Source: Candidatus Pelearchaeum maunauluense
GTDB taxonomy: Archaea; Thermoproteota; Nitrososphaeria_A; Caldarchaeales; Caldarchaeaceae
Assembly (NCBI GenBank): GCA_030059675.1
Contig: JANVYQ010000004.1
Coordinates: forward strand, 1 to 64,000
DNA length: 64,000 bases
Direction of reading: 5' to 3'
Numbering within the stretch: position 1 is the first letter of the stretch; every line of letters starts with the position of its first letter. Positions 269 to 16,932 of this stretch are shown here, piece by piece. The translations under genes were made by a program, and so were the position numbers. The notes under the pieces were generated by a model. That model was given only the letters and a program-made list of their open reading frames with translations, was not told the origin of the DNA and searched no databases.

Positions 269-967
269 ATGATGGTCACCGTTGAGGAGGCTCTCGCGCG
301 TTTCTTCAAGATAGGCGCTATCCTCGCCCTGTTGGGGGCTCTCCACATGCTCACGCTCCTCCTCCCCTGGTATGTAGTCTCTCCCGACACGCTGGTCCAG
401 GTCTACATTAGCGGCTACAACGTCCTTGAAACTCTAGCCCTCTCAGTTGTAGGCGGAATCCTGGCAGGCATGGGCTTGCTAATATCCAGCTTCATGGGTA
501 GGGTGAGGACTGTGAGGCTTGTCCTAACCTCGCTGGCGATTGCCGGCGGAGCCTTGGCAGCGCTCTCGCCGACATACTTGCTGATGGTTAAGATACCCCG
601 CCTACAGGTGGCTGGCAATATTGAGTGGGGTCTCTTTGCCTCGCTCTTCACAGCCCTCGCGCTCCTCGCTGTAGGAATACTGGCAGCGCTCACACGTCTC
701 TCAGAACCAAGATACACATACAGCTTCACGGGCACAGTAGCAAGCACGATGCCCCAGCTAGAAGAGACAAGCGTAGGCGAGACAACATTTGAGCCAGCAG
801 AGAGCGTAGAAGAAGGGGCTATGTGCACAATCTGCTACCAAGACGTATCAGCTGACGACGCCGTAAAATGCGCTTCATGCGGCATGGTTTATCACGGGGG
901 ATGCATAGATGAGTGGGTTAGCCTTAACGGTAACTGCCCCAACTGTAAGAGTGTGGTGAAGTCCTAA
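269..967 (+). CDS. Four-helix membrane protein with C-terminal RING/PHD-like zinc domain
   Basis: This 232-residue protein has four hydrophobic segments at about residues 12-36, 50-76, 82-107 and 118-143. An acidic, Thr/Ser-rich linker (144-183) leads to a compact cysteine domain at the very C-terminus. The metal-ligand pattern is C186-x2-C189-x11-C201-x2-C204-x4-H209-x2-C212-x10-C223-x2-C226, a C4HC3 cross-brace arrangement like RING or PHD fingers, with Trp216 between the sixth and seventh ligands. Known: RING domains recruit E2 enzymes in ubiquitin-like transfer, and some archaea (Caldiarchaeum) have an E1/E2/RING set. Inferred: a membrane-anchored RING-like protein, possibly an E3-type ligase or just a zinc-binding protein. 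ATG codons at 269 and 272 are both usable. glyS follows 42 nt downstream on the same strand. Confidence 0.8.
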   Translation: MMVTVEEALARFFKIGAILALLGALHMLTLLLPWYVVSPDTLVQVYISGYNVLETLALSVVGGILAGMGLLISSFMGRVRTVRLVLTSLAIAGGALAALSPTYLLMVKIPRLQVAGNIEWGLFASLFTALALLAVGILAALTRLSEPRYTYSFTGTVASTMPQLEETSVGETTFEPAESVEEGAMCTICYQDVSADDAVKCASCGMVYHGGCIDEWVSLNGNCPNCKSVVKS

Positions 968-15553: not shown

Positions 15554-15979
15554 CTATTCTTCCACCCTTACATCCTCCTCAACGAAGCGCGGGCCTTCGC
15601 TTGCATCTTCGCGTCTCCATGAGCGGTACTCAACCACGCCGCCGCTGGATACCGAGACGATGAGGTAAGAGTACCAGGGGAAGGAGTGTTCTAGGTCGTA
15701 CTGGGATGGTCTTGCCGCGACGTTTGGATGCGAGTGGTAGGTGCCTACGACGCGGAGGCCACGCTCCTCCGCGCTCTTCTCCACACGATAATACTCCATA
15801 GGGTCAATCCTATACCTAACGCGCCTATCCCCCTCGTGCACGTTGCTAACACGGACAACATCAACAACCATGCGCTCGTCTTCATCCCTCCCCAGCATGA
15901 GGCCGCAGCACTCGTATGGGTAAGACTCAACGCAGTGGTCTAGGATTTTCTTCATGGCTGCGCCGCTCACAACCAGCAT
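15554..15979 (-). CDS. mec: JAMM/MPN metalloprotease, Mec-like
   Basis: This 141-residue zinc isopeptidase of the M67/JAMM family has an intact active site: Glu23 (YPYECCG), His82 and His84 in YHSHP, Ser92 and Asp95 (HxH-x10-D). The single-domain size and the gene directly upstream, a cysteine synthase, match the mycobacterial mec-cysO-cysM unit, where Mec cleaves cysteine from the ubiquitin-like sulfur carrier CysO. No CysO-like gene lies between or beside them here. A deubiquitinase role cannot be excluded, but the neighbourhood favours cysteine release. Transcribed with cysM, 15 nt downstream of it. Confidence 0.88.
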   Translation of the reverse strand: MLVVSGAAMKKILDHCVESYPYECCGLMLGRDEDERMVVDVVRVSNVHEGDRRVRYRIDPMEYYRVEKSAEERGLRVVGTYHSHPNVAARPSQYDLEHSFPWYSYLIVSVSSGGVVEYRSWRREDASEGPRFVEEDVRVEE

Positions 15980-15994
15980 GTCTCCACACGCTCG

Positions 15995-16915
15995 CTATGG
16001 CTTTAGGCTGTTGCTCAGAGAGTCGGGGAATATTACGACTATATTTCCTTCACTCAGCTCCTCATAGAGCCTAAGCGCCGCCGCGAGCGCTGCGCCAGAG
16101 GATATACCCGCCAGTATCCCCTCGCGTAGCGCTACCTCGCGCGCCATGGCCTCGGCTTCTTCTGTCCTCACCTTTTCATGGATGTCCGCTGCCTCGCTGT
16201 CGTATATCGCTGGGAGCATCGCGCTCGCCATGTGCTTCAGCCCCTCTATCCCATGAAACTCCTCATCTGGCTGGACCTCCACAATCCTTATCCGCGGATT
16301 AAACTCCCTAAGCCTCCGCGAAGTCCCCATAAGCGTGCCTGAAGTCCCAACCCCAGCTACCAGGTGCGTGATAGCCCCGTTGGTCTGCGCTATTATCTCA
16401 ACAGCCGTCGTCTCATAATGGGCAAGAGGGTTGGCTGGGTTGCTGTACTGGTCTGCGTAGAAGTATGCACCCCTCTCCTGCTCGTATAGCTGGCGCGCGT
16501 ATCTTATAGCGCCATCTATTCCCTCAATAGCTGGCGTCAGCACAAGCTCAGCCCCGAATGCCCGCATCTTCTTTATCTTTGCCTGCGCAGCGTTCGCTGG
16601 AACTATAAGCTTGACGCGATAACCCAGCGCAGCGCCGAGCATGGAGTATGCGACGCCAGTGTTTCCAGAGGTTGCGTCTAGTATTATCTTACGCCGCGTA
16701 AGCCTGCCTGTCCTCTCCCCGTCCAGAATCATGTAGAGCGCTGGCCTATCCTTGACGGAGCCTCCTGGGTTCATCATCTCCAGCTTGGCGAAGAGCCTCA
16801 CGCCGCGTTTGCTCTCAAACCGCCTAAGCCTGACTAGGGGTGTCTTGCCTATGAGCGAGGCCACGCCGCGGCCGTTAGCCAGCTCAATAAGCGCTGTGCC
16901 CCTGCCTACGGTCAT
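15995..16915 (-). CDS. cysM: Cysteine synthase, PLP-dependent, CysM-like
   Basis: This 306-residue cytoplasmic PLP enzyme of fold type II makes cysteine from an activated serine and a sulfide or thiocarboxylate donor. The PLP lysine is in MNPGGSVKDRPALY, the phosphate-binding and substrate loops in DATSGNTGVAYSM and GVGTSGTLMG, and the C-terminal serine contacting the pyridine nitrogen in VVIFPDSLSN. Genomic pairing with a Mec-type JAMM protease suggests the CysO-thiocarboxylate-dependent CysM type rather than OASS-A. GTG 16918 directly precedes ATG 16915; I use the ATG. It sits 17 nt downstream of the ribbon-helix-helix regulator and 15 nt upstream of mec, forming a three-gene unit. Confidence 0.92.
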   Translation of the reverse strand: MTVGRGTALIELANGRGVASLIGKTPLVRLRRFESKRGVRLFAKLEMMNPGGSVKDRPALYMILDGERTGRLTRRKIILDATSGNTGVAYSMLGAALGYRVKLIVPANAAQAKIKKMRAFGAELVLTPAIEGIDGAIRYARQLYEQERGAYFYADQYSNPANPLAHYETTAVEIIAQTNGAITHLVAGVGTSGTLMGTSRRLREFNPRIRIVEVQPDEEFHGIEGLKHMASAMLPAIYDSEAADIHEKVRTEEAEAMAREVALREGILAGISSGAALAAALRLYEELSEGNIVVIFPDSLSNSLKP

Positions 16916-16932
16916 CACACATCAGTTTCCCC

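Follow-up and report, generated by a model that had tools for sequence, protein, structure and literature searches.

The closest described relative of the system considered here is the ubiquitin cascade of Candidatus Caldiarchaeum subterraneum, reconstituted by Hennell James et al. (2017; PMC5654768) with a soluble RING protein, srfp. In the available portions of that paper, the one RING E3 described for the system is soluble; its residues I30, W58 and R69 matter for ubiquitylation in vitro, and its ligands C3 and H4 have shifted position, an extra cysteine being present. In eukaryotes, membrane helices are combined with a cytosolic RING in E3s such as HRD1/synoviolin, gp78/AMFR, RNF13 and ZNRF3. 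The MARCH/Doa10 RING-CH proteins also unite a C4HC3 ligand set with a membrane location, their RING being usually N-terminal.

The DNA analysed here (the window, 64,000 nucleotides) comes from a heat-loving archaeon of the order Caldarchaeales (Aigarchaeota); Candidatus Pelearchaeum is placed in this order, formerly Aigarchaeota, in the part of PMC10547907 that was available. At positions 269-967 of the + strand it contains a gene, here called mRING, encoding a 232-residue protein with a four-helix membrane domain and a C-terminal RING, as delimited by the open reading frame, Pfam, the family alignment and an AF2 model. The protein is probably an E3 ubiquitin ligase of the RING type, embedded in the membrane and belonging to the Caldarchaeales ubiquitin cascade, or else a subunit of such an E3. 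The gene, its predicted RING fold, the conserved E2-contact residues, the position at the end of the ubiquitin cluster and the conservation throughout the order are computational observations, while E2 binding and catalysis are inferred.

The RING domain (residues 186-227, positions 824-949, + strand) was defined by Pfam, the model, Foldseek and a residue table. The zf-RING_2 family is matched with E=1e-10 and 42.1 bits (gathering score 27.3), as it is by all 26 members of the mRING family. The zinc ligands that the original prediction had named (C186, C189, C201, C204, H209, C212, C223 and C226) lie exactly where it placed them, and all eight are invariant both in the 26-member family alignment and in the mRING rows of the residue table; in the same alignment P224 is invariant, and I188 and W216 nearly so. 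Comparison with a sister genome gave a dN of 0.028 and a dS of 0.385 for the whole gene, and 0.009 and 0.547, respectively, for the RING part, where purifying selection is strongest. The zf-RING_2 score, its recurrence in 26/26 family members and the purifying selection argue that mRING is not a chance reading frame.

Modelled alone, the RING reached a pLDDT of 94.6, and its best 50 PDB matches in Foldseek were RING/U-box E3 structures, those listed including RNF12, RNF165, RNF38, EL5, RNF13, RING1B/Bmi1 and gp78, as well as 3lrq, titled as a U-box. Neither a PHD finger nor a zinc ribbon appeared among these 50, so the modelled domain sides with known RING E3s, and the criterion of a cross-brace RING fold is met, by prediction. 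A search of a viral fold library was uninformative, returning many giant-virus RINGs. Altogether, mRING shows the sequence-based features taken as criteria for a RING-type E3: a score above the cut-off, eight ligands in four pairs, the predicted fold, E2-contact residues with a basic linchpin (I188, W216 and P224, with K227 as linchpin) and a cognate E1, E2 and ubiquitin in the genome; the further criterion, stimulation of ubiquitin transfer from E2, is a matter of inference.

The original prediction had called the domain RING/PHD-like, and only the first half of that description holds, given the zf-RING_2 and fold matches. It is very improbable that mRING is instead a zinc-finger membrane protein of PHD or C1-like type, such as a lipid or peptide reader acting beside the neighbouring glycyl-tRNA synthetase, without any role in ubiquitin transfer. 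The C-x2-C-x4-H-x2-C spacing is found in PHD fingers too, and both PHD and C1 give weak Pfam matches, but these stay under their cut-offs (19.0 against 24 bits and 19.4 against 26.5 bits), as does Prok-RING_1 under its own, whereas zf-RING_2 lies well above. The aromatic residue typical of PHD fingers two positions before C223 is missing, residue 221 being a glycine, and the fold search recovered no such domain. The synthetase gene (GlyRS; 1010-2467, + strand, assigned from its sequence) lies next to mRING and in the same direction in many relatives; its conservation there counts for the non-ubiquitin reading and against the E3 reading, although it is probably merely a housekeeping neighbour, and the conservation of E2-contact residues in mRING, together with an E2 in all 44 genomes of the order, tells the other way. 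A PHD finger was accordingly rejected, as was a zinc ribbon on Pfam scores and the fold search. RING-CH of the MARCH/Doa10 type (RINGv) was discarded as well, since it requires C-x-C-x7-H and mRING has C-x2-C-x4-H.

The ligand spacing of mRING is instead that of the small RING of Caldiarchaeum. The ligand layout of C. subterraneum srfp is near-identical, the second gap differing by at most about one residue, and the two proteins also have in common their E2-contact positions, genomic neighbourhood and order; srfp is soluble and has about 75-90 residues, whereas mRING adds the membrane domain and a linker. The mRING profile also matches RINGs of eukaryotic membrane E3s in the PDB. In the latter, however, the second ligand pair is C-x-H, while mRING, like srfp, has C-x2-C, and the membrane domains of HRD1/synoviolin, gp78/AMFR, RNF13 and ZNRF3 are unrelated to that of mRING. 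The original interpretation, the layout of a eukaryotic membrane E3, is supported, with srfp-like rather than MARCH-type spacing. In a tree of RING domains, mRING and srfp fall on opposite sides of one branch (support 98/89; 50 columns, root unknown), which would fit a split before Caldarchaeales diversified; these separate groups, together with the 232-residue length and the helices, exclude mRING as an srfp orthologue.

The membrane domain comprises residues 5-141 (positions 281-691, + strand; AF2 model, Foldseek and hydropathy). The whole-protein AF2 model (pLDDT 82, pTM 0.57) places helices at residues 5-29, 53-73, 79-112 and 120-141, and short outer strands at 33-38, 45-48 and 115-118, so that the four transmembrane helices first supposed are backed by both the model and hydropathy. 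The linker that follows (residues 142-185, positions 692-823, + strand) is flexible and poorly conserved, judging from pLDDT and the alignment, and residues 148-168, with a pLDDT under 50, form a disordered stretch ahead of the RING. Basic residues lie close to the N-terminal end and in the segment that joins helix 2 to helix 3; by the positive-inside rule, both ends of the protein, and hence the RING, would be cytosolic, an inference resting on hydropathy, charge and a model.

Unexpectedly, all of the best 50 PDB matches listed for the complete model belong to the claudin, TARP and Cav-gamma superfamily, whose four-helix bundle with outer strands the mRING prediction resembles. The best match of this type has an E-value of 2.5e-3 (probability 1.00), and TM-scores over the query are only 0.30-0.45. 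No sequence similarity accompanies this likeness: no claudin family turned up when the membrane domain was compared with Pfam, and a PDB sequence search with that domain gave no hit at E 10. A claudin-like membrane fold is consequently a resemblance of models, not family membership, and remains unproven. Neither Pfam families nor sequences of solved structures offered a convincing relative of this domain, and none of the papers listed in a literature search for claudin-like archaeal proteins was relevant.

The eukaryote-like components of a ubiquitin tagging system, on which the original prediction depended, are present in the same genome, together with a second RING E3 and JAMM proteins. Neither of the two outcomes that this prediction had named as refuting it, a simple zinc ribbon fold and a genome lacking E1/E2 genes, was thus observed. 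Ubiquitin (PF00240), E2 (PF00179), E1 (PF00899), srfp, a coiled-coil gene (CC1) and most of a second one (CC2) are found at the end of a separate contig, C12. The 5' end of CC2, divergent and cut by the contig end, occupies positions 1-127 of the window (- strand; contig comparison). Window bases 1-29 coincide with the last bases of C12, exactly 29 bp being shared, inside CC2, and a contig of the sister genome spans the junction; the overlap and the bridging contig together place mRING about 1.3 kb from srfp. In relatives the gene order is JAMM (on the opposite strand), ubiquitin, E2, E1, srfp, CC1, CC2, mRING and GlyRS, and mRING closes the cluster of ubiquitin, E2, E1 and small RING E3 in three of the four families. 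From assemblies alone, srfp lies within 2.5 kb of mRING on the same strand in 29 of the 36 genomes with both, and E2 within 6 kb in 18/40; some of the remaining cases are contig breaks. An E2 match was obtained in 44/44 Caldarchaeales genomes against 0/17 genomes of other orders; that of one genome (G032, 57% complete) is only of a short, divergent kind.

A TATA-like box, CTTTTAAATA (positions 215-224, + strand; a sequence match, its function inferred), lies 54 bases 5' of the mRING start codon. Similar boxes precede many of the homologues, which suggests that mRING probably has its own promoter. Between srfp and mRING, most relatives carry the conserved genes CC1 (+) and CC2 (-), seen at L035 8368-9427 and, for the part of CC2 retained, at the window's 5' end; both gave only weak coiled-coil family matches.

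The E2-contact and linchpin residues can be compared in both RINGs, I30, W58 and R69 of srfp corresponding to I188, W216 and K227 of mRING. The srfp of one genome, G003, has I30, W58 and R69 at exactly those numbers, from which it is inferred that G003 very probably belongs to C. subterraneum or to an almost identical organism. This genome encodes mRING about 1.2 kb from srfp, with I, Y and G at the E2-contact and linchpin positions; C. subterraneum itself very probably carries mRING. In the Caldiarchaeum genus srfp is complete and mRING has Y and G. Family f2 shows a complementary decay of the two RINGs: its srfp (nine recovered) has lost W in 9/9 and I in 8/9 with R/K kept, and its mRINGs (n=12) keep I and W with G as linchpin. 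In other families both RINGs are mostly complete. Across the mRING family, some members have G, Q or N as linchpin, and the Caldiarchaeum genus has Y in place of W. This counts against the E3 reading, in that activity on its own need not hold for every member; the existence of two groups without the linchpin means that some may be partners of the soluble RING.

This complementary decay, and the complete srfp of Caldiarchaeum, support a different role, namely that mRING is a non-catalytic or half-catalytic partner of srfp, as Bmi1 is with RING1B, bringing E2 and srfp to the membrane. In f2, moreover, Ub-E2-E1 are located elsewhere, a point against the E3 reading, and srfp and mRING have still stayed near each other in most genomes; in one of these (G014), however, they are about 550 kb apart. 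The mRING of the window and most of those from other families retain all the E2-contact residues and the linchpin K. Besides, the linchpin of known RING dimers functions in the E2-binding protomer, so a division of linchpin and E2 contacts between protomers would be unusual. Such a partner role is for these reasons considered unlikely. The residue patterns leave two readings: mRING is an E3 that can do without its linchpin in some lineages, or both RINGs cooperate.

Under the preferred reading of mRING as an E3 or E3 subunit, the helices would anchor the protein so that its N-terminus and its C-terminal RING both lie in the cytosol. There the RING would bind the canonical E2 through I188, W216 and P224, K227 would favour the closed E2~Ub state, and ubiquitin would be handed to lysine residues of membrane proteins or of proteins close by. 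The tag would be stripped by JAMM/Rpn11, and the proteasome and Cdc48-type ATPases could process the tagged proteins. The genome encodes two JAB-family proteins, three subunits of the proteasome and three proteins of the Cdc48 type. In this way mRING would complement the soluble srfp E3. The gene for a 141-residue JAB/JAMM protein in the window (15554-15979, - strand) lies beside a cysteine synthase-like gene (15995-16918) and probably belongs to a sulfur pathway rather than to the ubiquitin system.

The helix-plus-finger layout recurs throughout the order: full-length mRING homologues were found in 41 of the 44 Caldarchaeales genomes examined, the membrane domain in those 41 being always accompanied by the RING. 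A contig scan, with a profile from a 9-sequence subset (the 26-sequence profile was too diverse), recovered relatives including Candidatus Pelearchaeum (94% identical), Wolframiiraptor, Geocrenenecus, Terraquivivens and Benthortus. Outside Caldarchaeales, a 300-genome sample of the phylum gave only weak partial matches, a larger sample gave the membrane domain in 0/354 genomes of other orders, and no full-length mRING was found in the other Thermoproteota sampled. No mRING match was obtained in one Caldarchaeales genome, G029, whose listed completeness is 95%, which counts against the E3 reading; contig C46 of this genome (L056 1-715) diverges from its relatives immediately ahead of the point where mRING would be expected to begin, and the absence may reflect rearrangement, loss or an assembly error. 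In a genome of another order of the phylum (G051), L053 3808-4536 encodes a protein of 242 residues in which about two membrane helices at the N-terminus are combined with a RING-like motif at the C-terminus; no PF00179 E2 was detected there, so this membrane RING apparently occurs without an E2.

No published description of mRING was found in the available portions of PMC5654768, PMC6053391, PMC4327156, PMC11354881 and PMC10547907, a set without the Nunoura 2011 genome paper. The accessible part of the 2014 survey (PMC4327156) counts zf-RING_2 proteins of Aigarchaeota without naming them, with nine in one genome, and mRING may be among them. The analysis suggests membrane-based ubiquitin tagging outside eukaryotes, the activity of mRING and its membrane substrates being inferred. 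If true, a conserved second, membrane-embedded RING near the ubiquitin genes would mean that neither spatial E3 specialisation nor the tagging of proteins with ubiquitin at membranes is restricted to eukaryotes. A fuller proposal is offered only tentatively: Caldarchaeales would run two E3s, one of them a claudin-like membrane RING that ubiquitinates membrane proteins by itself or as obligate partner of srfp, and in one family the E2-contact residues and the linchpin would have become divided between the RINGs. Such a system would be the prokaryotic equivalent of membrane E3s in eukaryotes and of their quality control of membrane proteins. The claim for mRING is directly testable with the components purified and assayed in 2017.

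Finally, a second ubiquitin-like module is possible in one genus of family f2. In G014, L050 5232-6050 (contig C2) encodes a fused ubiquitin-like and E2-like protein of 272 residues, with a JAMM gene immediately after it. Short E2 matches of a similar kind occur in G026 (C29), G028 (C28) and G032 (C59), and in these three genomes a small RING lies about 3 kb from the E2 match.
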